This document shows positions 5,864 to 58,074 of a DNA stretch of 64,000 nucleotides, in pieces. A model generated the notes under the pieces. It had not been told where the DNA came from. It worked only from the letters and a program-made list of their open reading frames with translations, and did not search any database. Each line of letters starts with the position of its first letter. Position 1 is the stretch's first letter. Source of the stretch: Ptychodera flava (lineage: Eukaryota; Hemichordata; Enteropneusta; Ptychoderidae); NCBI RefSeq assembly GCF_041260155.1, contig NC_091934.1, forward strand, positions 43,602,398 to 43,666,397, in the 5' to 3' direction. The position numbers were made by a program, and so were the translations under genes.

Positions 5864-7109
5864 GTAAGAGCTCGAAGAAGATCACTTTCTTAAAGGCGTT
5901 AATTATATTTTAGTTTACTTTATTTAATTATAAGGCCGAGTCCACTGACACCAGAGTGTCAGTAGCCATATTGTCAATGACGTCAAAGGTTCCGTATAAA
6001 CTAGGTCAAATGTTGTTTATTCCTTCAACAAGCTTCACCCACGGACAAATACCATATTCAGCTGTCGACCACTCGGTATATTTCTAAAAATTTATTAACT
6101 GTAACATCCGGAAAAGGGCGCATCAACTTGTCAGTAACGAAAATGGACGTCGTAACTTCGCTCGATTCTGAAATTCGAGTATTCGGTGTAGGCATGCACG
6201 GAGTTAGCTGTGATATCGCAGCGGTACTTGTGGCGTGTATCGAACACGCTCGGGTCATTGGGGTGGCGATGACCCCCAATGACCCGAGCGCGTTCAATAC
6301 ACGCCACTAGTACCGCTGCGATATCACAGCTAGCATGGAGTAGGGTCAGGGATGTCGATAGGGCCTATATCCCCAAAATAACCGTACAGCGCAGCTCCTT
6401 GCCCGGGTGAATAGAAACTCCGCAATTATTATAAATGACCTCAGACTTGTGTTTCGTTCGAAGGTCATCTAGGGCTGTTTTGACAAGAGGCATATGCCTC
6501 CTTGTATATCCTGTTCCAATATTCCCCACTTATGAGCTCGGTGTTCATGTTCAGTGCCAGTCAGCGGCCACTGTATTTAGAATGAAAATTTAGAGGGTCA
6601 GGTGCTCTATAACCGTGCCACTGATATCCGTGGCGGGGTTGACCTTTTGATGACCCGCATAGACGCACGCTTCCCCGCCAACAGATAGCTGCACAGCTAG
6701 GTGCACTCTTTGAACCATATCAGCCCTGCAAGTTTGAAATGGCTGCATGCAGTGGTCTCTAGGTCGCGGACAAAAAAGTGAAGTAGTTGGCTGTTGTTGT
6801 AGTTGCAGAAAGCTGAACTCCTGTAAAACCAGTAGACCGTGCAAAAATACGGTACCAGAGAAATAAATAACCCTAACCGATTATATTGAAATTGAAAATG
6901 GCCTCTATCCTGATCTCTACGGGAAATATTCATTTTCGATTTTTGGCAAAAGTAAGTTGAAAATTTTTATGTATTTTAACGGCTTCACAATGAGCTCACA
7001 CATTGTCAAGTGGTCGATTATTACAAAAAATGAGAAACCGAATCTTGGTTTTCAAGGTAAATTCTATTTCTACTGTTTTATCCGAACCTCTTACTATTCT
7101 TGTATGCAG
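5864..7109 (+). other. intron 1 of P450 copy 1
   Basis: At 1246 bp this intron is about 2.4 kb shorter than in copies 2 and 4, because it lacks the Harbinger-like insertion found there. The unfilled site is near 6123-6145 (ATCAACTTGTCAGTAACG). Apart from the foldback at 6205, the sequence aligns with the ends of the other first introns. Confidence 0.75.
6205..6332. mobile_element. 128-bp foldback element, TAG..CTA, 9-bp target duplication
   Basis: This is a near-perfect hairpin with arms of about 60 bp beginning TAGCTGTGATATCGCAGCGG and ending with the complement. It is flanked by GCACGGAGT (6196-6204) and GCATGGAGT (6333-6341). The paralogous introns at about 27250, 35850 and 61396 have one uninterrupted GGCATGGAGT, which confirms an insertion in copy 1 only. 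The termini and 9-bp duplication match the elements at 15660, 23928, 37886, 42012 and 57464. Confidence 0.85.
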
Positions 7110-8087
7110 GCATACTTTTTGCTCCATGGCCAATATGGAAAGACCTCCGTAAATCCTGCTTGGATGTCTTCCATGAGCTAGGAATGGCAAAAAACTCGAC
7201 CGAACTACGAATTCAAGAGGAAAGCCAACATCTCGCGAAGACTCTGCGACAATTAAACGGTGCGCCGACAGATTTGAGTCAGGTTCTTATGAGTGCCGTT
7301 TCCAACATAACCTGTAACTTGCTGTTCGGGAAGCGATTCAACTACGACGACGAAGAGTTCAAGGGACTTCTTGAGATCAGTCGTCAGATAGCAGCGAATA
7401 CTCAGCAGTCTGCAATTCTAAGTTTTATTCCATCGTTGTGTCGTTTGCCCTTGCCAATAAAAACCAGGCTGATGGCAGAGCACAACCGAATGGGTATGTT
7501 CATGGAGAAGGCAATAGCCGAACATACAGAGATGATTTCACAGTGTGAACCTGTTCAAGAGTCGTTTATCAGAGAGTACATAAGTCAAGTGCAAAACTAC
7601 AAAAGAAATCCATCAAACAGGTACAACTTAATTGCCTTCTTAGAAGATCCAGACCACCTCAAATATTCTTTAATCGTCCTTTTCACCGCTGGAACTGAAA
7701 CCTCCGCAACTACTTTGCTATGGGTCTTACTCTATCTCTGCCTAAACCAGGACATCCAAGAGAATTGTTTTAGCGAAATTAAAATGCCATTGGCCTTGAA
7801 AATACCCCATCCTATGCTGACAAAACCAACTCCCTTACGTGGAAGCAGTATTGTTGGAAGTTCAGCGAATAGCAAGCATTGTTCCAATCGGTATTGCACG
7901 GTCTATGATGGAAGATGCTGAGCTCTATGGTTACAACATTCCGAAGGGAGCCATGGTAATGCCAAACTTCTGGGCTGTGCACATGAACGAGGACCTGTGG
8001 GAGCAACCAGAGAAGTTTGATCCAGCTAGGTTTCTGGATGACTCGGGAGACTGGTGAACAGTGAACGGCTTATGCCGTTTTCAGTCG
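7110..8087 (+). CDS. P450 copy 1, exon 2 (frame-disrupted)
   Basis: The acceptor TATGCAG precedes GC ATA CTT. It encodes the C-helix WxxxR-like WKDLRK segment through the I-helix in frame. After about 7782 the reading frame is lost, and it is regained only after about 8047. The donor after TTTTCAGTCG is intact. Confidence 0.8.
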
Positions 8088-8174
8088 GTAAGTAGTGATA
8101 TTAAGCACAGAATGGCTGTGTTTCAACCTAGGGCAACGCTGCAGGAAAAAAAACAAAGTTATTTCTGTAATTAA

Positions 8175-8359
8175 AGGTATGCTGTCACCTGTTCCAATTT
8201 TGCCACAGTTACCATGGAAAGAGAAAATCTAACCAATCACAGATTTTAAGCGGGTGGCCGCTTTTTAAAAACAGCGCCCTCACATGGGCATTTTGAATAC
8301 CAAGGAACGCCCCTTTGACCATATATGGGCATATTTAGATTACAGGTGACTGTATACCT
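8175..8359. mobile_element. 185-bp TTAA MITE in intron 2 of copy 1
   Basis: The inverted ends are AGGTATGCTGTCACCTGT and ACAGGTGACTGTATACCT. TTAA lies on both sides (8171-8174 and 8360-8363). The empty site in copy 2 intron 2 has a single TTAA at the same point. TTAA duplications are typical of piggyBac and Kolobok superfamilies; I cannot choose between them. Confidence 0.85.
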
Positions 8360-8667
8360 TTAAAGCATACCCATGCCATTAAGGTTCAAAGCCGCTCTTT
8401 TTTGAGCTTTTATTTGTTTGATATGAAGAGTTGTTTGGGCTGTTTGACTATTTTAAACACAGAAATACAATTGTACTAAATAAACCTCTACTTGCTTGCA
8501 ACCAGACAAGTTTAAACTTGTCATGGACCATTCTAGGCAGGGTTTCTACCCGAATCAGCTACAGCGTACGACTCTTAGTGTGTATGACTAATACGGTTAC
8601 ATAAAATTTGACCAAATGCAAAAATTCGTTATGAAATCTTGATTGGTGGTGCGTTTCATATGGAGAA

Positions 8668-8670
<3 letters not shown>

Positions 8671-8742
<72 letters not shown>
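8671..8742. repeat. (TA)36 microsatellite in intron 2 of copy 1
   Basis: A pure TA run of 72 bp. The same place in copies 2-4 has only a few TA units (for example ATATATAGCAGCATATATAGC), so this is an expansion specific to copy 1. Confidence 0.98.
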
Positions 8743-9387: not shown

Positions 9388-10932
9388 AGAATTTTTGAAA
9401 ATATCAGAGTACGTGTTATTCATTATAGAATAGTAAAACGTAGTAACGCGGGTAGAAAATTTAGACATTGACTATTTGCAAGATTCTCCTCAAAACACAA
9501 CAACGACAACAAAAACAACAACGACAACTTCTCACAAAAGACGAATCTCTCAACTCTATCATTATGTATACATTTCGGGTAGTACAAGTATCGCAGGTAA
9601 AACAAACTTTTTCTAAAACTTTCCTCAACGAAACTTTCAACCACTTATCGAATCACGAATAAGAATCAGGAGCCAACGTGCAAAGTTTGGTACTAGAGAA
9701 ACAAATTACCGAACATTTACTGATATTAGAAACAAAAAACTCGATATCCCTGTCCGGAAAGCAGTAGGAAGCTGCATATAAATCTTGAAGTTGAACATCA
9801 TCAGCGTATTTGGTCCACATAATGATAAGGTCAATATCATGGTCAAGGTCAGTGTCAGAGCTATAACGGTAATTCGGTACATTCATTTTATCTGAAAACT
9901 GCTTTCTATCAGGTTCACGGATGTGAGAGTCGCTGACCTTGTTTATTATTTAGTGTCTGTATTTTAATGGTATCACTTGATAAGCACTTTGAATATTTAC
10001 CGAAAAATCTTTACATATCTTCACGTCTTTAATTTAGTTCGCAGACAAAACTAAATGAAAGAAAGCAACTGCATGATTTCTGTCTATCTAAAGTGTACAC
10101 TTTTGAGTAACAGCTTCAGCTAACGAAATTGTTGGCACAGGATTGATGAGATCACCTATGCTGTGTTGACTCCACTCACTAATAATATTACGATATGGGC
10201 GTGTCGTGTCATCAGATGAACGTCATTCAGGCATAATAATAATATATCGTTGTTTATTTAACGAGATTCATTTTCTGTTGTATTCATTATTATTCATGAT
10301 ATACTTTCAAAATTTCGATTTTTGAGTGAATAAAGACATTGACTTTACAGAGTTGAAGCAATCACACATCGAAAAAATCTTCACGTCATTTAGCTCTTAC
10401 TAGCCAAATAAATTTTTTGTTGTTAGAACCAATAGAGAGTTGTATCTTTGTCCATGCTCGTCAATAAAAAACGGTGTTTATTTGTTTCTGTTTGTTTACA
10501 AGTATCGTCAATAGATGATATTTTCACAAGTTTCTACTACAATTCCACATATATGAAATAAAACACATCCCTCCATTGCCGTGAGGAGTGAGCATTCATG
10601 TGTGTCCACCACTCTCTCCGAATACTGACACTTTGTAATAACTCATTGGAAAGGTGAGTATTCAGAGGTAGCGACACGAATCCTCTTGACAGGTGTTAGG
10701 TCAATGTCAGCATAACTGATGAATTTTCGTGTGGGCAAGTCCACTTAAATTTTGAGTTAACGATGAAAATAGCGCCCTCAGTGGTGTTTTTACCAAAATC
10801 CATGCTCATTGCTATGATTTCCATGGGTTCTTTAACTCCTTGTATTTCCGCAGAATGCTACAGCCATCTTTCACAACACTCTGCATTTTGATTTAAGCAG
10901 GCAATTATCTTTACAAAAATCCTTCAAATTAA
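9388..10932 (+). other. 3' flank of P450 copy 1
   Basis: This spacer closely matches 49708-51573 downstream of copy 3. At the place where copies 2 and 3 have AATAAA in the 3' flank (30419 and 49981), this copy has AATAAG near 9658. A CAACAAC-rich stretch follows the stop codon. No gene is seen. Confidence 0.7.
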
Positions 10933-11258
10933 AAGGACAAAGTCGGCCATTTTTTCATGAATTTTGTTTGATACGAGATACTACTTATATTGTTTGATAT
11001 GTTGAAAGATACTGAATGAATTGGTGATCATGCATATATTCGACCCCGGTTTTAGACAAATTAAATGAAACCATCGCGAAAATGAATCAATGGCCATGAG
11101 CATTAATTCATTTTCGCAATGGTTTCATGTATCGTGTCTAAACCGGGGTCAAAACTATGCATAGTCACCCATTCATTCATTATCTTTCAACATGTCAAAC
11201 AATATAAGTAGTATCTCGTATCAAACAAAATTCATGAAAAATGGCCGACTTTGTCCCT
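10933..11258. mobile_element. 326-bp foldback MITE flanked by TTAA
   Basis: Two arms of about 150 bp start AGGACAAAGTCGGCCATTTT and end with the complement. They also contain the palindromic pair GAAACCATCGCGAAAATGAA and TTCATTTTCGCAATGGTTTC. The left TTAA is intact; the right one is GTAA here but TTAA in the paralogue at 51742. The termini resemble TTAA-class (piggyBac/Kolobok) MITEs. Confidence 0.75.
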
Positions 11259-11262
11259 GTAA

Positions 11263-11619
11263 TGAAGAGGGTTCAATAATTTTTGGTATAGTCAAAGTAC
11301 CCAACTGGTTCTCTAGTAAATACAGTTGAGAAATAATCTGCAAGTATTTCAGATTCCTCGACGTCGTCAGTGGTCAAATTGTAAGAACAAGATCAATCAC
11401 AGAGGGCTTGTCAGATACTCTGCTCCCAATTGATGAAGTGATGTGTCAAAATTGGAATGAAAAACTATCAAAGACTGTCTCCAGAAATTTGAAATTGTCA
11501 TTGTTTTCACTTAATATACATTTACCAGTTTTGCGAATCAATGTATCTGTGATTAAAGTCTCATGTAATTAATAGAGGAGAATGGTATTTCTCTGCCAGT
11601 TCGGTTATGAGATGATTGA

Positions 11620-13370: not shown

Positions 13371-13960
13371 ATGGGGCCTCGCACAAAAATCCGTCCCCAG
13401 GGATAGGGATGGGGGTAGAGGTGTCTGAGCACAAAGATCTTATTGATATGTTTTTTTCTTTATTTTAATACGTTTGACTATGATATATATGGCAATAAAG
13501 ATTTATACTACCAACCATTCTTTGCAGCTGTGGTGTCTTTGTCTTATTTTAGCACTGGTTTTGTAACGATTTCTTTTCCTCGTTCGCCGTGCAACGTATT
13601 TGTCCTTTGACAAAGTCAACAACGGGTGCGCTCGTTGTTGACTTTGTTAAAGTTTATCCGGTGATAATCTGGTGACAGCGTCCACAGATTAGTAATTTAC
13701 CCTTGCTTACCCTTGCTTACTTTGGCAAATTAGGCACTCAAACTCATCAGATAACAGACTAGATTACCACCTTGCTTTCTTTGGCGAATTAGACAATCAA
13801 ACTGGTCAGATAGATGCAGCATGCTGATAAAACGTTAACACAAGATTGTCAAGGGCAGTGCAAGACCAAAACACCGAAGTTTGGTAGAATAAACCTTTAT
13901 TAGCAATACAACAAAACACCTACCCACCCCTGGGGACGGACACATAGGCTACCCCATATG
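13371..13960. mobile_element. 590-bp MITE with 8-bp target duplication
   Basis: GTTACGCC occurs on both sides (13363-13370 and 13961-13968) and once in the empty sites at 3902 and 57451. The ends are inverted and GC-rich: ATGGGG..CCGTCCCCAGGG on the left and CCCTGGGGACGG..CCCCATATG on the right. An 8-bp duplication suggests a hAT-type non-autonomous element. No ORF is present. Confidence 0.7.
13604..13650. repeat. 20-bp-arm hairpin
   Basis: CTTTGACAAAGTCAACAACG and its near-complement CGTTGTTGACTTTGTTAAAG are separated by 8 bp inside the 590-bp MITE. Confidence 0.8.
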
Positions 13961-15659
13961 GTTACGCCTGGCAGTGTTGATAATACCTTGATTCAGCTAT
14001 GTTCGCTGCGTTCATTTCACGCGAAGTACGTCCATCCCTAGACTTGCTCCAAGTCTATGGGCATGTAGGCGCTTAATGTCAAAACACAATAAATTGGAGG
14101 AATGAACTACGGCAGACCGTCACGCTAGGTGGTAGGCTAGCGCTTGGCCAGCCGATAACTGCTGCCGAGAACTTCAAAGCCAGGCAAATCGGGACAGTCT
14201 AGTGTACTATGCACACATCACGTGAAAGATGCTATAAGATTATTGTACTTGGGCCTCAGCCCAAGTACATTTGTTTTCATTCCGTGGGAAAAAACTCTGT
14301 AAGGTATAACCATTTCTGGCTGAGACCAGGGAGGGCAAAATGTCTTGGCTTCATCTTTCTTGGCATAATAAATGGCGTAATGATGTTAACTGAATGGAAG
14401 TGCTGCTCTCAGCCAGTCTTGAATAAGTGAGATGTGAATATTAGTGCTTCTCTATCTGAGTTTTTGCCACAAAATCTTCTGAATATAATCAAAATGTGCA
14501 TCGAAATGCAACAATTAATGCACCCTCCGTTTCCTAGGCGATGGCACGACCCTTGCTACACCCACTGGACGAGCCAAAGTGGGAGGGGTAATTTCAGTTT
14601 GGTCGAACAGGAGGGCTCGAGACCAGAATTAAACATGTTTTAATGTTTAAAAGATGTGGACTGGTGTTAATCAAAGTGAAAGTTTGAAAAGGAAAGGTTT
14701 TATATCCTGGACACAATGAAAAACATTACGACTGGAAACTGTACCCCTAGTTGAGAATAGTAATGCCCACAGCGATGGAGAACACTTATCCTTGAGCTGA
14801 GAAAACCAGACCATCATTTCGAAATAGAGCTGCAGATTCGAGAAGCTCGTTAAAAATAGCTAGGTACACCCCATAAAGGGGTGGTTTCGAGTCTTGAGGG
14901 CAAATTTCGCCTCCTTCATTTAGAAATCGTACGTTTGTTTTTCCAGGAGAACACACCATTTGACACAAAATTTGCATGTAAAGGGGTCGCCAGTAAGCAC
15001 GTGGTCAAATCTGGCATAAGAAACAATATGAAATGTTGGGTAAAGTCAGTCCAAAATAAACTGATTTGAACTTTTGTGTTTTGTAATTTATACCACTGCA
15101 GTAACATTACCTTTTTTGACAAATCACACAATGTAATACGTTTTGAAACTGAATACTCCGACGTAATCTGTGTCTCCTTTGCTAAAAAATACGGTATGCC
15201 GATTACCATGTAAGGAGATGATGACGTCAAGACAGATTTGTAGTGCGTTTGGTCCTGGATGGTGCACGAAGTTTTGTCAAGGTAGCTTGTGTATTTATTT
15301 CCTAAATGGGAGAGATTAGGGTCGATCTAAACGAAGGCCGAAGAATGTTATGATACTCTAAGCGAGCTGAACTCTAACGCGAATGGTTGGATAATTTGGA
15401 GGATGTCTAGAATGATCTCGTCTCATTAAGATTATTTGGCAGTCAGTATTGAATTTCAACTGCGTCACAAGTTTGCGAAATGAGTATTCCGTCGAACGGT
15501 CAACGAACGATATTTTAGAAATCTGGAGACATGGCACATCGCATTTTTATTTTAGTATTTTATATTTTACAAAAGATTTAAGAAGCAATGATTTTGTCGA
15601 AAATTCTGAAAAAAATATAGGAAGATTTGATCGCGAACACATTTTCACTTGGGGTCAAC

Positions 15660-15969
15660 TAGCCCTGCGTACGATGTTGTGTGTTCCGCTACATCGCCCC
15701 GCTCACCACAGCCCTGCAAAGACCCGTACGTTGGGTCGGTGACTTCAAATCCATTTTGAGACTTGACGTAAAAAGCCAAATTACTGCCGAAATTCAGCGT
15801 TCTTGGGCCCAAGTCGTATCCCAGCCTACCTCAGCTACTCGATCGCTTCCAAAAATGACAGTCTTTTATTCACTTCTCGTAAATAACCGTCGATGTCGGC
15901 AACTCTCTCGCTAGCCCTGCGTACGATGCTGTGTGTTAGCTGTAGCACATAGCATCGTACGCAGGGCTA
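15660..15969. mobile_element. 310-bp TAG..CTA element with 9-bp target duplication
   Basis: The left end reads TAGCCCTGCGTACGATG and the right end is its complement. GGGGTCAAC flanks both sides (15651-15659 and 15970-15978). The last 58 bp (15912-15969) form a complete hairpin of their own with the same termini, as if a second short copy were fused to the right end. Confidence 0.8.
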
Positions 15970-19106: not shown

Positions 19107-19418
19107 TAGCCCTGCGTACGATGCTGTGTGTTCCACTACAGCTAACCGCCCGCACACCACAGCCCTGCAAAGACCGTACGTTGGGTCGGTGACTTCAAAT
19201 CCATTTTGGGACTTGACGTAAAAAGCCAAATTACTGCCGAAATTCAGCGTTCTTGGGCCCAAGTCGTATCCCAGCCTACCTCAGCTACTCGATCGCTTCC
19301 AAAATGACAGTCTTTTATTCACTTCTCGTAAATAACCGTCGATGTCGGCAACTCTCTCGCTGGCCCTGCGTACGATGCTGTGTGTTAGCTGTAGCACATA
19401 GCATCGTACGCAGGGCTA
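19107..19418. mobile_element. 312-bp TAG..CTA element (copy in second unit)
   Basis: This is the paralogue of 15660-15969, carried along by the tandem duplication. It has the same GGGGTCAAC 9-bp flanks (19098-19106 and 19419-19427) and the same self-contained hairpin at its right end. Confidence 0.8.
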
Positions 19419-23686: not shown

Positions 23687-24161
23687 AGGTCAGCTAGGTG
23701 AAATCAAATGTGTCATCCTCTCCGACCTTTGTAATTACCAAGATTCCCCACTGGATCAAGGCAAAGCGTAAAGTTGTTTTTCCTGCATAATCTATTGATA
23801 ATTTGTACAATAATTTTTTGATCACTTATAAATATTTTTCAGTATTTTATAGGTCTGAAATACTGTACACAGATGACCTTTCAATCAGTTCACTGTGAAG
23901 TCATATATGACAAAGCATATTCATCCATAGTCTCGCATGCCAGACCTCGAGCCGCGAAGTGCGAAGCCGCCAGCTGCGAGAAACAGGTAACCTGCGGCTA
24001 CTCGCGGCTCCGCCGCTGGTGGCGCACTTCGTACGCCTATCAAACACAGACGCAGGTTCGAGGTCTGGCACCTGGCATGCGAGACTAATTCATCCACAAC
24101 CAGTAGAGTAACAGTGGTTAATCTTACCTCATATCACGGTGAACGCGATTGACTTCTAACT
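23687..24161 (+). other. upstream region of P450 copy 2
   Basis: It is shared with 32270-32790 and 57831-58309. It contains the 160-bp foldback at 23928, then about 74 bp of unique sequence before the start codon. No TATA box is evident at a useful distance. The shared GTGGTTAATCTTAC block before the start codon is the best-conserved short stretch. Confidence 0.6.
23928..24087. mobile_element. foldback element, TAG..CTA, 9-bp target duplication, before P450 copy 2
   Basis: The outer arms TAGTCTCGCATGCCAGACCT and the complement near 24060-24087 enclose a GC-rich inner stem. ATTCATCCA flanks both ends (23919-23927 and 24088-24096). The same insertion is present before copies 3 and 4, and its right end is before copy 1, so it predates the array. 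It lies 74 bp from the ATG and would place a strong stem-loop in or near the promoter or 5' UTR. Confidence 0.85.
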
Positions 24162-24486
24162 ATGTTCGAGTTTCTCCGTGTTGTCTTCGTTCTAATCGTC
24201 ATATTAGCCACAACTCTGTGGTATCGTCACTATCGACGCAACCTACCACCTGGTCCCTTGGGTCTGCCTTTAATTGGATGTCTGTTACGTCTTGGAGGAA
24301 GACCTCACAAAAAATTTACGGAATGGGCTAAAGTGTATGGAGACGTCTTCAGTGTGCGACTTGGTACGGAGCTAGTGGTGATTCTGAACAGCAATCGAGC
24401 GATCAAAGAAGCTTTCATCAAAAAGTCTTCCATGTTCTCTTCGAGGGTACAAGAGGGACTTTTTAATCAGCTGTTTAATAACAAAG
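24162..24486 (+). CDS. P450 copy 2, exon 1
   Basis: It encodes residues 1-108 and the first base of Gly109, including the ER anchor and the VYGDVFSVRLG and VVILNSNRAIKEAF strands. The donor is AAAG/GTAAGAG. Confidence 0.93.
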
Positions 24487-27400
24487 GTAAGAGAACAGAA
24501 AATTAGCTTCCTATGGCGATGACCCTTGAACCTAGCGCGTTCGATAAGTACCGCTGCGATATATCACAGCTAGAAGAAGATCAATTAAGCGTTAATCATA
24601 AATCCGATTCCACTGACACCCGAGTGCCAATAGCCATATAGTCAATGAGGTCAAAGGTCCCGTAACTGGGTCCAATGTCGCGATGTTGCGTTCCTTCGAC
24701 AAGCTTCATCTGAGGATAAAAATCTGGTTTTTAATATTGACCCCGAGCTGTCGACCGCTCGGTATATTTCTATATCAACTTCTTAGGGGTGAACCATTTG
24801 ATTTTTGGGGGGTATGGAGGATTTTGAGAAAAAAAATTGTCACCAGGTGAGATAGAAGGAAAAAAATTGATCCTGTCATGGCCTGAGAAAAAAAAATTGT
24901 CATAACAGACAGAAGTGAAAAAAAAATTGTCACAATGCACCAGAAATTAGCAAAATTTGGAAACCTTATTCTCATGTATTCTTTGCCGGCGCGCCGCCAT
25001 AGGTGGCGCAAATGTTTTTACCACAAGCAATTCTTATGGTTTTTTTCCCAGCACTTATGATATAAACATGCACTACATAGGTCTACTTTACACCTCAGTA
25101 CACTCAATGTTTTCCTTCCCTTTTCTGACCCAAGAAATCATATTTCAGGATTTCTGTTGCAATATCTCAATGGCATAGGCACTATCTAGAGGAGACTATT
25201 TGACTTCTGTAAATTGTGAAAATTTAAAACACAAAACAGGAGTCAATAAACTAGTGTTAAAACCAATATATTATTCTCTTAATATAAATATGTTAGAAAG
25301 ATGTACAAGATGACAATGAAAAATCGAGGAACAACAAATATAATGAAATAAAATGTGTGAGCCTTGTTTCTCTGACCACAAAAGATAACATCTTTCCTGA
25401 GAACTTACATCGATGCTTGGTCATGTTAATTATAATATGACACCACACACCGGATCGCTCATTATAGAGTCCGTCAACAGTGGCGAACTCTCTCAATAAC
25501 TAATCTTCTGCTTCTCCTCTTTGAGGACGCTGATGACTTAATAATCACACAACCAAGCGGAGGAGATACAAAACAAGAGAGCGACTGATGAAGGAACCCC
25601 ATTTTTGGTTCTTAAACACCATTAAGACGAATCACTCAATCAACAAACCGGTTTACTGGGGACTAAGATCACATGACCAGGGTCAAAGCACTATCAATTC
25701 ACCGGTGTCTCGCCATGTATTCGGAGGAATGTGAGGAGGGAGGGGGTCACTAAAAAAATTGAAAACTTCAGGGGGCGTTACTGAAAATGTGTAGAGGAAG
25801 GGGGGCGGGGCTACTCAATTTTTTTGTGCGAAATAAATTGAGACACATCTCAGATTGCACCATTGCACACATCCATTTCTCAAAATTTTCATTGCGAGAG
25901 GGGGGGCACCCCCCTCTCGTGCTCTACCCCGTGGGTCTTCTAACAGTTTTACTGGTAAAAGACAAATTGAAAATACCTCTCGGATTGCACTACACTGCAC
26001 CGTGGCGCACATCAATTTCTCAAAATTTTCACAGGATCTAGGACAAAACTGAACTGTTGTGAATTCATCCTTTATTATCACAGAAACATGTTTTAATTTA
26101 CCTCAGTTCAATGACCATTTTCACAGTTAAACATACCATATTCAAGCTTTTAAGCTGGCAGCTGGAGAAAATATGACACACGAAGGTCACAGATTTTCCG
26201 TTCCTGTATATTCGTTTGTCTTCAGTCTCTGGCAAACAGAACTGTTTTTCACAAATTGTATTGTCATTGTTTGGTTGTTGAATATTGTGACCCAAACACT
26301 GATCATGCAAAAATGTAAAACTATCAGTCATTTCAAGCAGTTTTACTGAGTGCAAAATAAACTGAAACTCCTCTCAGATTGCACCATTAAACACATCAAT
26401 ATTTCAAAGTTTCCAATACGAGAGGGGGAACCCCCTCTCGTGCTCTCACCCTTGGGGTATTCTAACAGTTTCACTTAGTAAAAAAATTAAAAAACACCTC
26501 TCAGATTGCACCAGACTGCACCATTGCACACATCAATATCTTAAAATTTCCTTGCTAGTAAGGGGAAAGCCTCTGTGACACTTTCCCCTTGTTCTCCCCC
26601 TGTACTTTCAAATTCTGCCCGGTCAGATATCCTAGTGAAAACCCTGTCATAATATCCATCCAAATTAAACAATACACTATATGGCTAGATACTGCGTGAG
26701 CTTTTATATCTTTATTTTATTGTGACTTTGAATTTCATTTGATGGGTTCACCTTTTTGAACCATCATGAGATAACTGATGATAGTCTAGCAGGGTACATC
26801 AGGATTTGAAAGGTCTTTACTGTTGCTGTATTTTGTAAATATTACAATTATATGTATTGGTATTTAACTTTTTAAGTGGGGGATCAGTCAAAATTTCAGA
26901 GATAGAGAGGGAGGTTATTAAATTCATCACGGTTGGCGAGGGGGGCGGGAGGATCACTCGAAATTTCAGAGTTTCAGGCTGTAAATAATGACGACTCCCT
27001 TATATACAACGCATTACAAACTTGATACCAATAAAAAAAATTTGCACTGCTACTCCATTTGAAAAAAAATTGATGCAGGTCTGACTGTAGGAAAAAAAAT
27101 TGCTGTCACTCTAAAAGGGAAAAAAATTGCTCCCATACCCACTTCCTCCATACCCCCCCCCCTCTCACAGAAATCAGATGGTTCTCCCCTTAGAAAATAG
27201 AAATGGACGACATAACTTCGGTCGATTCTGAAATTCGAGTATTCGGAATTGGCATGGAGTAGGGTCGGGGATGTCGATATAGCCCCAAATAGCCCTACAG
27301 CGCAGCTTCTTGCCCGGGTGTCGATAGAAACTCCGTAATTATAAATGACCGCGGACCTGTGTTCCGTTCGAAGGTCATCTGGGAACGGCTGAGGCGGCCA

Positions 27401-33293: not shown

Positions 33294-33306
33294 AGGTCAA
33301 AGGTCC
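33294..33306 (+). promoter_or_regulatory. DR1-like site, copy 3 intron 1
   Basis: AGGTCAAAGGTCC, identical to the sites in copies 2 and 4. Confidence 0.3.
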
Positions 33307-33431
33307 CGTAACTGGGTCAAATGTCGCGATGTTGCGTTCCTTCGACAACCTTCACCTGAGGATAAAAATCTGGTTTTTAATATTGACCCCGAGCTGTCGA
33401 CCGCTCGGTATATTTCTATATCAACTTCTTA

Positions 33432-37560: not shown

Positions 37561-37885
37561 TATCTGAACTCATTATTTGACCTGCATTTGAACCCTACCC
37601 AGAAATCATTGCACATCACAATGGCGGCTGTGATTTGGTCGGTCTCCTCGGACAGAGAGAAGAAAACCGGGCTTTGCTTAAGTTTTAAAGCGCAGCTCAG
37701 CATATCGCGTATCTAGAATAGTTTATCGTGCTCGAAAACATAGGTCGACCACGATTTCGGATTAAAAATCGATTGTTTTCGGCGGCGGAACTGGGCTGTG
37801 GTGGGGGTAGCCGACGGTGTCATGTCTCCATAGCTATGGTAGGCAGTTACAGTCCCTCCATCCCCAGAGGGACTGTGGTTACACC

Positions 37886-37990
37886 TAGCTCTCTGCGTAG
37901 CAGGGCGGTGTTACCGGCGTTATACGGCCTCCCACCACATTGAGCAGGCCGTATAACGCCGGTAACACACAGCCCTGCCATGCAGAGCGA
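37886..37990. mobile_element. 105-bp TAG-start foldback, 9-bp target duplication
   Basis: It begins TAGCTCTCTGCGTAGCAGGG. The central arms GTTACCGGCGTTATACGGCC and the complement are close together. GGTTACACC flanks it (37877-37885 and 37991-37999). The ends and the central stem resemble the foldback at 57464. Confidence 0.8.
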
Positions 37991-38454
37991 GGTTACACCC
38001 AACCTGCCACGCACAGCCAGCGTGCGAAATTCACGCTAACCCGTGGCCTAAGACCAACTGTTTTCATGCCGGACCAGTAACACTTGACAGATGTCCTGCT
38101 GTCCCTAAAGACGAGGGACAGTAACGTTAAACTTTTCCTGTATGTACAGATGTTTACCAAAATGTTTTGCTAAGCTAAATACCCGACAAAATTATTCAAA
38201 GATACGAAATTTATTCTTTCAAGAGATTTGCAAAACGCGAAATTCGCAAATAGGCCTAAAGGTTAACAGACTGATCGGCACGACGTCAAAGCCAAAGACC
38301 TTATAGGCCCACCTCACGTTTTATCGCCAAAGTAATGAGTGGCGCTATGCAATATCCTCTCCATTTGTAAAGCATTTCATTTGTTAGGTTCAAGATCTCC
38401 TTGTGGTCATAATAGCGTAATTAAATTGTTTTATAGCGCATTGGACTTTTGGAC

Positions 38455-39220
38455 AACACAGTATCGAAATTAGAATTGTTTGGTCAGATCGTGGACCCTC
38501 GAGAAAAACTACGTTTTATGGTCACATATGTGAGATGGTGAAATCTCCGATGTTGGATATTTACCCACTGTTTTAGACAAGTATCGTATAATTTAAGTCA
38601 GATTCGGACTACGGAAGTCGGGCTTGGCTAGACCACTGGACCAGTTTTTACACATGGTGATCTCCCAGATAAACATCAATTATTTGCCCACGATTTGACA
38701 AGTATAGTATCGTAAAGTATCGAAGTTAGAGCCATATTGAGGAAATCGGGTTTGCCGGGCGGGTTTTGCAAGATCTGTGAGGTGGCAAATCTCTGACATA
38801 TATATCGGACATTTGTCACGGAATCGCCGATAAACATCGGAGATTTTACATAGATCAGACGTGCCTAAGACACAAGGCAAGTCATTCTAGTGACCATATG
38901 CATATGGTCCCAATCGCCGATAAATATCGAGTAAATATATGTGATTTCACAGATCCGCCGTGTTGAGACGCAAGGCAAGTCATTCTAGAATTGCCCAGTG
39001 TCGATTACTATAATTTAGAGTCCCAAAATCGCCGATATGTATCAGCTTGAAGTAAAATATCGGCAATTTCTCAAACCCGGCGTGCGCGACAGACGGCAAG
39101 CCATTTTTGTGTCGTCTAGTACCGATATTAGACCCGATATATAGATTGTGTATGACGGAAATATGTTGGACGTCAAACTTCAATACCAGAAAGTAAATGT
39201 CCGACATATACATTGTGGCA
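38455..39220. repeat. degenerate ~120-bp repeats
   Basis: Five or six diverged units share ACAAGTAT.GTA, ATCGCCGATAAATATCG-like and GGCAAGTCATTCTAG motifs. The period is irregular (roughly 90-130 bp). Confidence 0.55.
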
Positions 39221-42011
39221 AGTAGTTCTGACTTTGATGGCTATTTGCCTTAGTCACAGTTAAGGTTAAGCCACAGTCCCTTTATGTGGTTAAGATTACA
39301 TTTTAAATTTGTGATTCGTCTTTTGACGTGGATTTCGACACTTCAGTATTATTTCTCTTCATCAGTTGCCCTTATTTTTGTATTCCCTTCCTTGAATTGA
39401 CGATGAGTCCCTCAAAGAGGAGAAGCCAGAATTTTTTTTGAAGAGTCAAATGTTGTATTGACTCCATTTGTGTTTGATCCGGTGTTTGTGCTGCCAAAAC
39501 TTAATTACCCATCCCTGATCGGTGTTCTGGACGCCTAGCTTTTCCATATTGGGACATATTTCAAGCCCGCGCTTAATGCTCGTTTTCTCATTGTTAGAAA
39601 TATTTTTGTGAAAGGTTATTTTTTATGAAATAAAAAAGTCTTATGAGTTTGTGCTTAACCTTTCACTGATTCCATATTTTTTTTGGCACTGAGATCAGTT
39701 ACCCCAACTTTTGGTTTTGATAGTCATCTTCATATTTTGCTTCAAAAGAATTAAAGACACAAAAACAGTTTGATATTAGGTTTTTGAAGTGGTGTCTTTT
39801 TATTTTTTCAATCACATGTTACCTTCTTGGCCCTATACTGAGCGCGGGTAAATAATCCTCTATATTTCAACGGATTTGACCTGATAATGGGACCAGTTGA
39901 TTTCCTTCAGGGCCATTGATTTTCTAAAGTTGCTGGCCCGCTTGACCAGTAAAGATTTTTGCGCGGTGAGTTTCGCACACTGCGCACAGCTCAGTAAAGG
40001 TATAAGGATTATGTTACCCCAGTTCCATGGAGCGAAGTGCGACCAAGATTATGTGTTATGTTATTTAGACGTTTATGTTATTAGACACGAAAGTTTCTCG
40101 TATTTTGCCAATGCGGTGGCAGTTGATGGTGACCGCCCTGAAGCTCCAACACCCCATGTTGCGACATCCCTGTGTTCCGACACCCCCATATATTTTTAAA
40201 TAAATACTTCTGCAGGAACTAGTTTTCAGGTTGTCAAGTCTTATTTACAATGTAATGAATATAAAACATTTCTACATGTGACTGTAAAGGCAAGATTTCA
40301 ATAGAAGTTCACACCGAAATCATTCTTTGATTTATTCCTAATGATCTATAGTTTATTATATACTCTTTCGTAAATATGTTTGACCTTGACAAAGCGATTA
40401 TATTGTCGTATTTATTTGCCAAATATAGACCACACTGCATTTGATTGTATTATTAGAATCCAAATCATCTCAGCATATTCGTGCCATTAATTGAAGCCTT
40501 CTCATCCAGATGAGTCCAGATGAGATTTATGAAAAAAAAAATGAGAAAGCAATAGGGCCTACTTTTCTTTTATCTTATTTTAAGGCCAGTTAGAGTTGCA
40601 TCTGTATGCTACAGTCTGAAAAGCCGGTGATAAGTATCAAGGAAATATTCGTTCAGTGAAGATGTCTTATCATACGTATGCCACATTACATTTTTGTTTG
40701 TCAGGAACTATTCTCGAACATATGTTATTTTTATCGTAAACTCATAGGGGCACGGTCGCTTACCTAACGACTTTTTATTGCGTTGTTTGTCATGAAACTT
40801 TATGATTTTTCCCCGTAAAGAAGTATGTTGATTCGTTGTGAGGACTCCAACCTTTAAAACTGTATTGTCTCCCCATGCACGATTTTGATTCTTTCTTTTG
40901 TTTTCCCTTTCGATTATGCGATGTTGTTTTTCTTCCGCAGAGCGCGATATTAATAGCGAAAACAATCGTTTTTATCAAGTCCACACGGCCGAACATGCAG
41001 TCGCTGTTTTCTCAAGCTGCAAGTTTTACGTATTTTTTGCTGTGTTGATTAGGCAAATAAAACATACTGCATACACCGAAGCATCGCCATACACACAGCT
41101 GTTGTGCCGTGTCTTGTACAGTATCATGACATTGGCAATTATTAAAACAAATTTAAACATTTACTGCAAGGAGTATTTTTGAAAATAACATGTCGGGAAT
41201 TAAGGACGGTATGCGAGGACTTGAAACACACTCAATTTTTATACCACGGGCATATAGGAAGAAATTAAATATTACCTGTAACCGTAACTTCAAAGATGCA
41301 TCAGTTATGGAAAATTCTTGGAAATGTACGAATATATTTTACCTTTTGGAAGTTTTATATTGAAATACTCACGGGAATTAAAATTTCCTCCCTGCTTATT
41401 GTTGACATTTTTGCAACCGACTCTGTCCATATAAATTGTTTGTCAAATATTGTACGATTCCTGTTTGTTAAAATTATTTAATTTTACATATAATATCGTC
41501 TAGAAAAATGATTTCAAAACCTTACATCTCAATATCTCGGCTATAGCATGTATAGAGACGCGTTGTACTCAAGTACAAATGAAAGATCACCGGCCCAACT
41601 CAAATCATATTGAAAAACCGCAATAATTTCTACATTTGGTGAAGCCCTGCAGTTATGAGAAACGGATTTCTTTTACGTTCAGAACTATACCAAGAAAATT
41701 AAAAGTAAGTTCTGATAATCGGGTACACTGGAAATCGGAAAGTTCCGCCCTGTTTAGGCCTACATCATGCCATTCTAATCACCTATAAATAATTTCGGAT
41801 TTAGGCCTATTGTAATTTAGAATAATATATATCACATTGATAAATCATGGTTTATATATTTCAATTACAAAGGTTCGACGTTTTCTTCAAAAAAGGAATC
41901 GTTCGGAATCACATTGAAGTTTTCTAAACACAATGTTTAGGACACAATTTTAAAAAGACGGCTCTATTAAAATTGAGTAAGCTTAAAAATGCTGCCTCGA
42001 TGCGTATAGCC

Positions 42012-42182
42012 TAGCTGTGGGTCCATAGCTGTGGTGTTTTCAGACGAGATTCCTGCCTTTTACGGGCTGGTTTTGACTTTTACTATTTTAACCCCGCCAC
42101 CACAAAATCGTAATCAAAACCAGCCATTAAAAGGCAGGAATCCGGTCAGAAAACACCATAGCTATGGATCGACCCACAGCTA
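42012..42182. mobile_element. 171-bp TAG..CTA foldback, 9-bp target duplication
   Basis: The ends TAGCTGTGGGTC and GACCCACAGCTA are flanked by CGTATAGCC on both sides (42003-42011 and 42183-42191). The arms of about 65 bp include GATTCCTGCCTTTTA opposite TAAAAGGCAGGAATC. Confidence 0.85.
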
Positions 42183-42360
42183 CGTATAGCCATGGGTTTC
42201 ATAGACTCAGGCAGATAGGCGTTGAGGTCGAGGCCGGACCCCACCATTGCTGTGCCCTACGTCCTTATACCCAAGTTCATGATGTAAACCGTGTCGGGCC
42301 GATTTATATGATAGAGTTCGGGTATTAATAACACCTTTTAGCTCTACGCACAGGCACCAC

Positions 42361-42418
42361 CGTAGTTGATAGCGTTTTAGTGCCCTTTTCTACAACACTA
42401 CAAGCGCTATCAACTACG
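42361..42418. repeat. 58-bp hairpin
   Basis: CGTAGTTGATAGCG and CGCTATCAACTACG are perfect complements separated by 30 bp. No flanking duplication was found, so I do not count it as an insertion. Confidence 0.8.
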
Positions 42419-42699
42419 ATAGTGCTATAGTGGCTCTACGAGAGTCTACATGGCAGTGCTGGGGCTGTCGACAGCCCGCTGACTTCCAGTATGGAGCGCC
42501 CAGTTCCGCCGCCGAAAACAATCGATTTTTAATCCGAAATCGTGGTCGACCTATGTTTTCGAGCACGATAAACTATTCTAGATACGCGATATGCTGAGCT
42601 GCGCTTTAAAACTTAAGCAAAGCCCGCTTTTCTCTCTCTATCCGAGGAGACCGACCAAATTACAGCCGCCATTGTGATGTGCAATGATTTCTGGGTAGG

Positions 42700-44130
42700 G
42701 TTCAAATGCAGGTCAAATAATGAGTTCAGATAATAAAGTAGGTCAAATAATTGAAAGCCAGCTAATGTCATAATAATGTCGTAATCATGACCAAATAATC
42801 GCATAATAATGGCTAGTAATGACACAAAAATGACCCAATCACCAAATAATGAAATAATAATGATGAGATAAGTTCCAAATCAAGACATAAATACTAAATA
42901 ATAGCAAAACAACCGAATTAACATAATAAATTCATAATAATGTCAAGATAATATCAAGATAATGTCGTAATCATGACCAAATAATCGCGTAATAAAGACC
43001 AAATAATGACATAAAAATGACCAAATCACCTAATAATGGCAAAATAATGATGAAATAAGTTCCAAATCAAGACATCAAAGCCGAATAATTGAAAAAGAAC
43101 CGAATTAACATAATAAATTCATAATAATGTCAAGGTAATGTCGTAATAATCACCAAATAATCGCATAATAAAGACCAAATAATGACATAAAAATGACCAA
43201 ATCACCAAATAGTGGAATAATAATGATGAAATAAGTTCCAAATCAAGACATCAATGCCGAATAATGGTAAAAGAACCGAATTAACATAATAAATTCATAA
43301 TAATGTCAAGATAATATCAAGATAATGTCATAATCATGACCAAATAATCGCGTAATAAAGACCAAATAATGACATAAAAATGACCTAATCACAAAATAAT
43401 GGCATAATAATGATGAAATAAGTTCCAAATCAAGACATCAATGCCGAATAATTGAAAAAGAACCGAATTAACATAATAAATTCGTAATAATGTCAAGGTA
43501 ATGTCGTAATAATCACCAAATAATCGCATAATAAAGACCAAATAATGACGTAAAAATGACCAAATCACCAAATAATGGAATAATAATGATGAAATAAGTT
43601 CCAAATCAAGACATCAATGCCGAATAATGCAAAAGAACCGAATTAACATAATAAATTCATAATAATGTCAAGTAATATCATAATAATCACCAAATAATCG
43701 CATAATAAAGACCAAATAGTGAAGTAAAAATGACCAAATCACCAAATAATGGAATAATAATGATGAAATAAGTTCCAAATCAAGACATCAATGCCGAATA
43801 ATGGCAAAAGAACCGAATTAACATAATAAATTCATAATAATGTCAAGATAATATCATAATCATGACCAAATAATCGCGTAATAAAGACCAAATAATGACA
43901 TAAAAATGACCAAATCACAAAATAATGGCAAAATAATGATGAAATAAGTTCCAAATCAAGACATCAATGCCGAATAATTGAAAAAGAACCGAATTAACAT
44001 AATAAATTCATAATAATGTCAAGGTAATGTCGTAATAAGCACCAAATAATCGCATAATAAAGACTAAATAAGGACATAAAAATGACCAAATCACCAAATA
44101 ATGGAATAATAATGATGAGATAAGTTTAAA
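42700..44130. repeat. 176-bp tandem repeats, right arm
   Basis: The reverse-complement counterpart of 36180-37560, with seven or eight units (CCAAATCAAGACATCAATGC motif). The order and small variants differ slightly from the left arm. Confidence 0.9.
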
Positions 44131-44271
44131 TAAAGATTTCAAGATAATTTTGGCGGTGTTCTCACCCCATATGCCCTCACTGTATTTAGAATTATTTATC
44201 CACTGCGCACATCGTAATAATCCGTGGTGTGCGCTGATTGCTCTGGACGTTACTGCCACGGTCCGTCAGCC

Positions 44272-44416
44272 CACAGGTTATCGTAACATTGCTTGGATAG
44301 TCGTTCCGAGGCGGGCGGCCGCAGGTCGCCGTTTACTTCTTTGTTTTCCAAGTAAACGGCGACCTGCGGCCGCCCGCCTCGGAACGACTATCCAAGCAAT
44401 GTTACGATAACCTGTG
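44272..44416. mobile_element. 145-bp hAT-like foldback MITE
   Basis: A near-perfect hairpin with arms of about 66 bp beginning CACAGGTTATCGTAACATTG. It is flanked by the 8-bp duplication CGTCAGCC (44264-44271 and 44417-44424). Eight-base duplications are typical of hAT elements. The GC-rich inner arm contains CGGGCGGCCGCAGGTCGCCG. Confidence 0.85.
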
Positions 44417-44611
44417 CGTCAGCCAAGCGAGCGGTCAAACTTTAAATCCGGGGGTCAAATATGATGCAAATTAGACAGAATAAGAAAATTTAAATCCAAG
44501 ATAGCGGCCAGGTCCTGTGACCAATGAAAATTTAAAGGAACAGGTGCATTAGTACTCTTTGAGCCTGCTTTGAGCCCATCAGCCCTGCAAGTTTGAAATG
44601 GCTGCGTGCAG

Positions 44612-44700
44612 CACAGGTTATCTTTTTTTTCCCAAGTAAACGGTGACCTGCGGCCGCCCGCCTCGGAACGACTATCCAAGCAATGTTACGATAACCTGTG
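44612..44700. mobile_element. 89-bp deletion derivative of the hAT-like MITE
   Basis: The right arm is complete but only CACAGGTTATC of the left end remains. GCGTGCAG flanks both sides (44604-44611 and 44701-44708). The paralogous introns read GGCTGCGTGCAGCGGTC without it. It is a second, independent insertion only 195 bp from the first. Confidence 0.85.
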
Positions 44701-45090
44701 GCGTGCAGCGGTCTCTGAGATCTAGGTCGACAAAAAATTGACGGAAGAAGAAGTTGGCTGTTGTTGTAGTTGCAGAAAGCTGAACTCCTGTAAAAGCAGT
44801 AGACCGTGCAAAAATACGATACCAGAGAAATAAATAACCCCAAGTTAACCGATTATTGAAATTGAAAATAGCCTCTATCCTGATGTTATTTGTACGCGAA
44901 AAAATCATTTCCGATTTTTAACAAAAGTAAGTTGGTGGAAATTGTATTTATTTTAAGGGCTTCACAATGAACTCACAAATTGTCAAGTGGTCGATCAGAA
45001 AAGTATTACAAAAATTGAGAACCCGAGTCTTGGTCTTCAAGGCGTATTTACCTTTATACTGAGAATCTTTTTTTCTATTCCTGTATGCAG

Positions 45091-46071
45091 GCATACTCTT
45101 TGCTCCATGGCCAATATGGAAAGAACTCCGCAAATCCTGCTTGGGAATCTTCCATGAGCTAGGAATGGCAAAAAACTCGACTGAACTACGAATTCAAGAG
45201 GAAAGCCAACATCTCGCGAAGACTCTGTGACAATTAAACGGTGCGCCGACAGATTTGAGTCAGGTTTTAATGAGTGCCGTTTCCAACATAACCTGTAACT
45301 TGCTGTTCGGGAAGCGATTCGATTATGACGACGAAGAGTTCAAGGGACTTCTAGAGATCAGTCGTCAGTTAGCAGTGAATACTCAACAGTCTTCAATTCT
45401 CAGTTTTATTCCATCGTTGTGCCGTTTGCCCTTGCCAATAAAAACCAGGCTGATGGCAGAGCACAACCGAATGGGTATGTTCATGGAGAAGGCAATAGCC
45501 GAACATACAGAGACGATTTCACAGTGTGAACCTGTTCAAGAGTCGTTTATCAGAGGGTACATAAGTCAAGTCAAAAACTACAAAAGTAATCCATCAAACA
45601 GGCACAACTCAAGCACCTTCTCAGAAGATCCAGACCACCTCAAATATTCTTTAATCGTCCTTTTCACCGCTGGAACTGAAACCTCCGCAACTACTTTGCT
45701 ATGGGTCTTACTCTATCTCTGCCTAAACCAGGACATCCAAGAGAATTGTTTTAGCGAAATTAAAAACGCCATTGGCCTTGAAAATACCCCATCCTATGCC
45801 GACAAAACCAAACTCCCGTACGTAGAAGCGGTATTGTTGGAAGTTCAGCGAATAGCAAGCATTGTTCCAATCGGTATTGCACGGTCTATGATGGAAGATG
45901 CAGAGCTCTATGGTTACAACATTCCGAAGGGAGCCATGGTTATGCCAAACTTCTGGGCTGTGCACATGAACGAGGAGCTATGGGAGCATCCAGAGAAGTT
46001 TGATCCTGCTAGGTTTCTGGATGATTCGGGGAGACTGGTGAACAGTGAACGGCTTATGCCGTTTTCAGTCG
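45091..46071 (+). CDS. P450 copy 3, exon 2 (contains a stop)
   Basis: 981 bp, in frame with copy 2 except for TGA at 45228 replacing Arg155. The rest of the exon reads open to the donor. Confidence 0.85.
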
Positions 46072-46088
46072 GTAAGTAGTGATAGTAA

Positions 46089-55853: not shown

Positions 55854-55915
55854 AATAGAAGTAGGACTTCAATAAATTAGACAAAAACGTATAGTATCTG
55901 TCTGATGTCTCTCTC

Positions 55916-56455
55916 GTTAGCTCGTGTGTTCACATACGTGAGCAAACATCGAAGCAATGTCTGTCTGTCTGTCTGTTGGTGCGATATCTGTAGAACGGCT
56001 AATTGGATCAGAATCAAATCTGGTAAAAAGATTATGTTTAAGAATGGCAAGAATTGATCAGTTTTTAGTGGGTGTGGCTTGCATATGTTTTGCATGTATA
56101 TGTATATCCCCCATGTTTTGCATATGTTTTTCATTTGCATAATTAATTATTTAAGAAAAAACATTGAGACATACATTGAGAACGGCTGAATAGATTTGGA
56201 TGAAATTTGCTACGAAAGTTGGCCACACATAGATTTACCCACTGTGGAAGGCATAAAAGGGTGACATCAAAACTAATTGCTATATTGCATATTTGATGAA
56301 CTTTCCTTATTTGGAATATGTATCTAAATTTATCAAAATTGACGAAACTTGATATTTATGGGGGATATACATCTGAATTGACTCGACCAAAGTTAAAGAA
56401 ATTTGCTATGTACATTAAAGATAGCATGATGTAACATTATTGAAATCATTACAGT
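55916..56455 (-). mobile_element. Helentron-like (HINE) element (paralogue of 11744)
   Basis: Stem-loop, GTCT microsatellite and reverse core repeat as in the other spacers. Confidence 0.55.
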
Positions 56456-56572
56456 GGTCTGCGTTGACCAATTGGCATTAGACGAACTAGAACATATTGT
56501 CTAAATCGGGGAGTTTTCAACATTGTCAGGGGCAATTATCACCTAGGCGGTAATATGATTCTATCATATAAG

Positions 56573-56933
56573 AATCACCTCTGCAAAAGTTGAAACATTG
56601 TCTAGCAGAGTTGTATTTTTTACATAATTCCGTCACATGAAAGTTTGGTGTTTAACATTGTCTAGCAGAGTTGTATTTTTTACATAATTCCGTCACATGA
56701 AAGTTTGGTGTGTTGTAAAAACACTTGCTTATTTATTAATGATGCATGTGTGTATTTTGTCAGTTTAAAAATTTGTAAATGCGAAAATCTGTACATTTGA
56801 TAATACTAAACCTGACAGTAAGTGATACGACCTGGACAGTTAGCGGGCTGTGCATGGATATGTGTAGTGTGGCGTTGTTTTGACTATATCCGATTTCCTT
56901 TTAGACGATGTTTCAACTTTTGCAGAGTTGATT
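56573..56933. mobile_element. 31-bp-TIR element (paralogue of 12406)
   Basis: Same ends as at 12406, without the SINE-like insertion. It carries an extra 60-bp tandem duplication (56592-56711). Confidence 0.6.
56592..56711. repeat. 60-bp tandem duplication
   Basis: Two adjacent, virtually identical 60-bp copies starting at ACATTGTCTAGCAGAG (56595 and 56655). Only this spacer has it. Confidence 0.9.
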
Positions 56934-57463
56934 TGTGACCGACTGATAATGCTGCCTAGCTGACAGTTACCGTTACTAGCGTCGCACTCGTATATAGGGG
57001 GAATTACGAGTTGAGGTACCAGTCTGGATCGTAATGCTTTTGGATGCGTAATGCTTTCAAGATGTAGATTATAACACAACCTTGTACTTTATGACAAGAT
57101 GGCGACCGTGTCGTTCACCGTCAAAGGTCTGATCTCAAGTCCTTCTAGTCTAAGCTCTCTACAAAGTTAAATACATATCAAGACTTACATAATTACAAAA
57201 GTTATCATGTGGTAATTTTCCTGCCAGTCTTTGATAGTTTCTTAAGATTAAATATGATCACACCATGGAATATCCCGTTCTCGATTGTTCTTATTGAAAT
57301 CTTAACCAATAATTAATTAAACTATCACACTATCTCTTATCTGCTTCTCGTACGATCTGAATCAATAACCTTCACACGCCTTGGCCACGTGAGGGACTCT
57401 TCGAGATAAAATCTCTACAGGGAGGGGCGTTACACTAGGGCTGGCTGGTAGTTACGCCTGGCA

Positions 57464-57558
57464 TAGCCCTGCCTACAGGTCTGTGTGTTCCCGGCGTGAT
57501 ACGGCCTCAACCACAGGCCGTATCACGCCGGGAACACACAGATCTGTACGCAGGGCTA
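57464..57558. mobile_element. 95-bp TAG..CTA foldback, 9-bp target duplication
   Basis: TAGCCCTGCCTACAGGTCTG and the complement form a hairpin with an 8-bp loop region. CGCCTGGCA flanks it (57455-57463 and 57559-57567). The empty sites are at 3906 and 13965. The termini match the 310-bp element at 15660. Confidence 0.88.
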
Positions 57559-58074
57559 CGCCTGGCAGTGTTGACAATAACTTGATTCAGCTATGTTCGC
57601 TGCGTTCATTTCACGTGAAGTACATCCCTAGACTTGCTCCAAGTCTATGGGCATGTAGGCGCTGAATGTCAAAACACAATAAATTGGAGGAATGAACTAC
57701 GGCAGACCGTCACGCTAGGTGGTAGGCTAGCGCTTGGCCAGCCGATAACTGCTGCCGAGAAAAGCCAGGCAAATTGGGACAGTCTAGTGTACTATGCAAA
57801 CATCACGTGAAAGATGCTATAAGATGTCGGGTAAAGGTCAACTAGGTGAAATCAAATGTGTAATCCTCTCCTACCTTTGTAATTACCAAGATTCCCCGCT
57901 GGATCAAGGCAAATGTAAAGTTATTTTTCCTGCATAAACTATTGATAACTTGGTCAATAACTTTTTGATCACTTATATTTTTTCAGTATTTTATAGGTCT
58001 GAAATATTTTACACAGATGACCTTTAAACCAGTTCATTGTGAAGTCATGATATACGACAAAGCATATTCATCCA

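Follow-up and report, generated by a model that had tools for sequence, protein, structure and literature searches.

Foldback elements with TAG..CTA ends and 9-bp target-site duplications in Ptychodera flava, probably mobilised by a Mutator-superfamily enzyme

Cut-and-paste transposons are mobilised by a transposase that binds the tips of the element, excises it and joins it to a staggered target. For Mutator-like elements (MULEs), target-site duplications (TSDs) are given as 8-11 bp, and for Rehavkus as 9 bp (PMC6446971). Foldback families linked to Mutator, namely Tm1 (PMC3169594), derivatives of Muta1 (PMC5225508) and Tetris (PMC4079207), are described with 8-10 bp duplications, variable ends and non-coding members, and there is precedent for placing transposase-less elements in MuDR on the strength of their ends and a 9-bp TSD (PMC3627910). 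Here we analyzed a 64-kb stretch of the Ptychodera flava genome (contig NC_091934.1; 38% G+C), hereafter the window, and identified a set of short elements that begin with TAG, end in CTA or a close variant, and are flanked by 9-bp direct repeats. We consider it probable that these are non-autonomous, foldback-type miniature inverted-repeat transposable elements (MITEs) of a cut-and-paste transposon with terminal inverted repeats (TIRs), whose enzyme most likely belongs to the Mutator superfamily (MULE, Phantom or Rehavkus-like). The elements are well-bounded and largely ordinary; the interest lies in how little end sequence their different groups share.

We delimited nine copies, none with an assigned strand, and refer to each by its first position. 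A 128-bp TAG..CTA hairpin at 6205-6332 is flanked by GCACGGAGT (6196-6204) and GCATGGAGT (6333-6341), which differ by one mismatch. The 310-bp TAG..CTA element at 15660-15969 carries GGGGTCAAC on both sides, and its segmental duplicate at 19107-19418, 95.9% identical, has the same TSD GGGGTCAAC and the same flanks. Three further copies are paralogous: a TAG..CTA hairpin with a shortened left arm at 23928-24087 (TSD ATTCATCCA), upstream of a cytochrome P450 first exon; the longest copy of this insertion, 189 bp, at 32511-32699 in the next P450 duplicate (TSD ATTCATCCA); and a 144-bp copy at 58075-58218 (TSD ATTCATCCA/ATTCATCGA) whose left arm is mostly gone. A 105-bp TAG..CGA hairpin at 37886-37990, with an exact TSD GGTTACACC, and a 171-bp TAG..CTA hairpin at 42012-42182 (TSD CGTATAGCC) both lie inside an 8-kb transposon at 36132-44171. 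Finally, a near-perfect 95-bp TAG..CTA hairpin at 57464-57558 has CGCCTGGCA on both sides.

Comparison of the window with itself placed 15660 and 19107 in a duplicated 1.9-kb segment (95% identity) and showed that 23928, 32511 and 58075 occupy the same position in three P450 duplicates; a fourth duplicate, near 5414, retains only the 3' end of that insertion. Because these two sets are segmental duplicates, the nine copies represent six independent insertions. All six carry the 9-bp duplication, with the single mismatch in 6205, and 17 of the 18 ends read TAG, the right end of 37886 reading TCG. The elements are short (95-312 bp), have TIRs and one TSD length, and show no transposase domain in the frames scanned, as is typical of MITEs. 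The TSDs are slightly richer in G+C (31/54) than the flanks (45%; P 0.04) and than the window as a whole (P 0.003), a difference too weak to use.

The association of TAG ends with 9-bp flanks emerges from a scan that had no TAG requirement. Searching the window for inverted ends matching at 11 or more of 14 positions, within 700 bp and with direct repeats of 6-14 bp on either side, we listed 25 candidates. Eight of these have flanks of 9 bp that differ at one position or none, and each of the eight has TAG..CTA ends, whereas none of the remaining 17 starts with TAG. Order-1 shuffles yielded 0.15 candidates with 9-bp flanks per window (20 windows) against the eight found, and exact 9-bp flanks occur six times against 0.01 per window under an order-2 null (100 windows). 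A looser TAG..CTA scan (up to 700 bp, one terminal mismatch allowed, TIR at least 9/14, flank length k of 5-13) returned exact flanks six times at k=9, once each at k=5 and k=7, and never at k=6, 8 or 10-13. At this TIR setting, with 9-bp flanks and at most one mismatch, TAG gave 8 matches and the other 63 trinucleotides together 14; the best of those, ATC, had five, four of them within 176-bp minisatellites. The 37886 copy escaped these scans because its right end is imperfect; it was recognised by reading the sequence directly. We set aside duplication lengths other than 9 bp, as the scans over 5-13 bp favour 9, and also a 7-bp reading of the 15660/19107 flanks, which arises from complementary boundary bases and fails for the other insertions.

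These data confirm that the pairing of TAG..CTA ends with a 9-bp duplication is real. A preliminary description of the window had proposed such a class of elements, and its core survives in the excess of 9-bp flanks over shuffled sequence, with the amendment that the nine copies reduce to six insertions. The counts also bear on whether these are transposons at all. Palindromes left by replication or repair, with flanking repeats arising by chance, are an extremely improbable source: the window does contain another palindrome without TAG ends (10928-11263), but six to eight observed cases stand against a null of 0.01-0.15 per window, and empty sites exist for two of the six insertions, that of 57464 speaking against a palindrome origin for that insertion.

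We identified these empty sites within the window by joining the flanks of each insertion minus one target copy. The 57464 insertion has an empty counterpart at 3895-4018 that is 94.4% identical over 124 columns, contains a single CGCCTGGCA and is gap-free at the junction; it covers all 100 bases of the right flank and only the last 20 of the left. For 6205, three paralogous segments (27201, 35790 and 61336), 81-82% identical, each contain one GCATGGAGT; the filled copy has 4 extra left-flank bases, which makes this case less exact. An unfilled site with a single target copy was thus found for two of the six insertions, which supports insertion with a 9-bp target duplication. For the remaining four insertions the window contains no homologous site that is unfilled, and the test is uninformative for them. 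As a separate observation, another paralogue carries an extra stretch of ~0.6 kb (13374-13967) at nearly the same target as 57464; this stretch is flanked on either side by GTTACGCC, and its ends are weakly inverted.

The P450 paralogues record what happened to one insertion afterwards. When 23928, 32511 and 58075 are aligned, 32511 is the longest, 23928 and 58075 are without different stretches of the left arm, and the right arm and target copies are intact in all three save for point changes. Since the segment unique to 32511 pairs with the right arm retained by the other two, it is more likely that 23928 and 58075 lost sequence than that 32511 gained it. This arm loss fits deletion inside a hairpin arm after insertion.

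Within the elements, the two arms are matched to varying degrees. Identical aligned columns number 56/59 in 6205, 42/44 in 57464, 38/42 in 37886, 68/82 in 42012 and 62/87 in 32511, and these five are predicted to fold as near-complete hairpins. The predicted folds of 23928 (28/37) and 58075 (15/16) are less complete, and 15660 (38/54) and 19107 (34/40) do not fold as near-complete hairpins. The 15660 element has a TIR of ~24-26 bp, a middle of ~226 bp without one continuous hairpin, and then a 3' hairpin of 58 nt (15912-15969) that is itself bounded by TAG and CTA. The earlier statement that all of the elements fold into hairpins applies to most of them, but not to 15660, a 310-bp element in which hairpin structure is confined to the ends. 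In 42012, the terminal 8-mer TAGCTGTG is found again at base 15, and the part at 42028-42162 weakly resembles the Rfam microRNA families MIR7504 and MIR1219 (39.2 and 28.7 bits, with gathering thresholds of 83 and 79), a likeness that may be what MITE hairpins show.

Arm sequence divides the insertions into a small number of groups. Arms of 37886 and 57464 match at 77.5-90.6% over stretches of 32-89 bp, and the ends of 15660 match 57464 at 85-93% over 25-29 bases; 15660 and 37886 showed no significant match to each other in this comparison. Judging from these matches, we count four groups: 15660, 37886 and 57464 together, and 6205, 42012 and 23928 each alone. We then compared ends between groups using one member of each, with 57464 and 32511 representing theirs and an expected identity of 0.26. 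Bases 1-3 are identical in 72/72 comparisons, bases 4-8 in 60/120 and bases 9-14 in 43/144, and identity is at background from base 15 (61/240 for bases 15-24, 121/504 for bases 25-45). The proposal that different interiors share their termini is borne out by this gradient. That the arms otherwise differ is true between the four groups from base 15, but not of 37886, 57464 and 15660, which share arm sequence. Of the six insertions, four have the longer word TAGCYSTG at both ends; the exceptions are 37886 and 23928. Across both arms, the best 8-mer reaches, as a raw count, three of four groups and four of six insertions. A subterminal binding motif suggested by eye (GTGTGTT-like words ~20-30 bases inside) was not above shuffles when one arm was taken per group, and is not claimed.

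The same gradient can be read as the product of four distinct MITE families, each with a transposase of its own, that have TAG and a 9-bp stagger in common by chance. The background identity from base 15 is what such families would show. However, TAG (apart from the one TCG end of 37886) and the 9-bp duplication are common to all six independent insertions, and the left-arm likeness at bases 4-8 was reached by only 206 of 20000 random draws. We regard separate origins as rather unlikely; this explanation overlaps the others considered here, and its probability is not additive with theirs. An intermediate view between shared and separate enzymes would have several related ones from one superfamily, and a single shared mobilising enzyme, as first proposed, is plausible. 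A stricter version of the shared-enzyme idea holds that one transposase reads little beyond the terminal TAG (often TAGCYSTG) and the hairpin or cruciform shape, such that any DNA able to fold back well between such tips would become mobile, giving rise to new families time after time. We think this improbable; were it correct, the 15660 element with its 58-nt 3' hairpin would be an intermediate.

In the mechanism we favour, we infer cut-and-paste movement by a transposase of the Mutator superfamily acting in trans. The enzyme would recognise the outer bases, TAG in all groups and, for four of the six insertions, TAGCYSTG at each end, then excise the element and reinsert it at 9-bp staggered cuts, whose repair would leave the 9-bp duplication. 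Arms beyond the recognised tip would be free to vary, which would allow several hairpin families to depend on a single enzyme or on a small set of related ones. Once inserted, hairpins lose parts of one arm, as seen in the three P450 paralogues. Of this scheme, the sequence itself shows the insertion with a 9-bp duplication, the shared tips and the arm loss. Foldback MITEs are a known kind of element, and by analogy with described families these probably belong to the Mutator superfamily: a 9-bp duplication in all six insertions lies within the MULE range of 8-11 bp, where 9 bp is frequent. The preliminary assignment to MULE/MuDR agrees with published duplication lengths (PMC6446971) and sits less easily with the terminal TAG and with the protein searches described below.

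Several observations weigh against a Mutator assignment. It is the most likely one, and it draws solely on duplication length and foldback form. The first three bases of arthropod MULE ends are described as mostly G/C (PMC13359780), a tendency rather than a defining rule, and the elements here begin with TAG. At maize Mu insertion sites, the reported target pattern is S followed by W at the TSD edge (PMC2774946); our sites do not follow it, and S at position 2 in five of six is too small a sample to weigh. With one arm taken per group, the best 8-mer is found in two of four groups, a count that 276 of 300 shuffles reach or exceed. The window has 135 stop-free frames of 72 aa or longer. Pfam scans of 118 of them, and of ten of the larger frames separately, found no transposase domain; the 17 omitted frames overlap P450 exons, a long interspersed nuclear element (LINE), minisatellites, the element at 32511 or another frame that was itself scanned. 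Matches in these frames were to P450, reverse transcriptase, endonuclease and Baculo_FP-type domains, all others having E of at least 0.0089. The lack of a transposase domain in the scanned frames is expected of non-autonomous copies. A scan for TAG-ended elements of up to 20 kb likewise revealed no autonomous partner in the window: of its 15 rows, eight are copies described above and two pair the ends of two copies; the other five, with a TIR of 9/14 and one flank mismatch, we judged unconvincing. We also rejected the 8-kb element at 36132-44171 as the autonomous partner, since its ends (TATGGGG) and its 6-bp duplication (TGCCCT) differ.

The unusual ends leave room for elements of the same kind moved by a DDE transposase outside Mutator, such as an unrecognised or aberrant enzyme of hAT, P, Merlin or another type that cuts with a 9-bp stagger and for which TAG would be the signature. 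TAG..CTA is unlike the usual arthropod MULE ends of PMC13359780, and hAT transposases tolerate other staggers, lineages with 5-, 6- and 7-bp TSDs being known (PMC12730594). Against this, the hAT TSD is usually 8 bp, with no 9-bp lineage coming to light in the text consulted, and the Merlin TSD is stated as 8 bp (PMC10045372), compared with 9 bp here. Exact TAG..CTA matches in our scans number 0 at 8 bp and 6 at 9 bp, which departs from the hAT length. Merlin TSDs are also given as 8-9 bp. On balance, an enzyme of this kind is possible, though we do not favour it over a Mutator-superfamily transposase.

Searches beyond the window gave no confirmed match. IMG/VR viral contigs contained no confirmed match for two hairpin patterns, the P450 or the LINE, and GTDB genome contigs no match for one hairpin pattern or the LINE; this is expected, because these collections hold prokaryotes and viruses. 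A 17-bp end of the 8-kb element matches four viral contigs (L001-L004), which beyond those 17 bp do not clearly resemble its terminus. We did not find the TAG elements described in an open-licence full-text library, and an entry in Repbase or Dfam may well exist.

Other mobile elements in the window have their own signatures. The transposon that hosts 37886 and 42012 spans 8.04 kb (36132-44171), begins TATGGGGTGAGAACACC (TATGGGG..CCCCATA) and has a 6-bp TSD, TGCCCT. Its 1.7-kb TIRs carry 176-bp minisatellites, and two empty paralogous sites are 99.2% and 94.8% identical. IS3EU elements are described with TAYGG..CCRTA ends and 6-bp TSDs (PMC12730594), and the ends and duplication of this putative IS3EU element fit that signature, although the scanned frames yielded no transposase. 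Two CACAGG..CCTGTG hairpins at 44272-44416 and 44612-44700 have 8-bp TSDs (CGTCAGCC and GCGTGCAG, respectively). The first has perfect 67-bp arms, and the second, for which there are three empty sites, resembles a one-armed derivative of the first. Duplications of three different lengths thus occur in the window, each paired with a distinct set of ends, and this adds weight to the link between TAG and 9 bp.

The palindrome at 10928-11263 is a 336-bp near-palindrome (88%), and a paralogue near 51.7 kb is without part of it. Four tandem P450 copies (5521-7921, 24153-29110, 32701-46079 and 58220-63227) share ~91-97% DNA identity in aligned stretches, with exon pairs at 5.5/7.1, 24.2/28.0, 32.7/45.2 and 58.2/62.1 kb. 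One copy is interrupted by the 8-kb transposon, and remnants of non-LTR (long terminal repeat) retrotransposons are also present. The form of the P450 genes and the type of LINE point to an animal genome.

This set adds cleanly bounded foldback MITEs, with two insertions matched to empty sites and paralogues showing later arm loss. If several unrelated arms truly share one enzyme, the minimal end for a transposase with a 9-bp stagger would be directly testable, and so would the origin of new MITE families.

Among described systems, Rehavkus (PMC6446971) resembles the TAG elements in its 9-bp duplications, inverted ends and invertebrate hosts, but is described as having a minisatellite ahead of the 3' TIR and a transposase with a PHD finger; we saw neither in the TAG elements. 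No tandem array is reported inside these, and non-autonomous Rehavkus copies could lack both the array and the PHD finger. Muta1 and its derivatives, MULEs of Aedes aegypti (PMC5225508), have 8-9 bp duplications and many non-autonomous derivatives of foldback type with variable interiors; most of those derivatives are reported to keep the Muta1 TIR, often truncated, together with 12-bp subterminal repeats, whereas the arms here differ between groups. Tm1, a Mutator/Foldback element of root-knot nematodes (PMC3169594), carries tandem TIR motifs of 13-15 bp and has a copy with a Phantom-like transposase, unlike our elements, in which only the tips are common between groups; it is alike in that its duplications are mostly 9 bp long, its inverted ends are composite and vary in length, some members are MITE-like and there is no clear target consensus. 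Tetris, a foldback element of Drosophila virilis (PMC4079207), has TIRs that reach 1.7 kb and contain 220-bp tandem repeats, in contrast to the 95-312 bp of the elements here, but it too is non-coding, makes 8-10 bp duplications, and was assigned to Mutator by its duplication length and foldback form.

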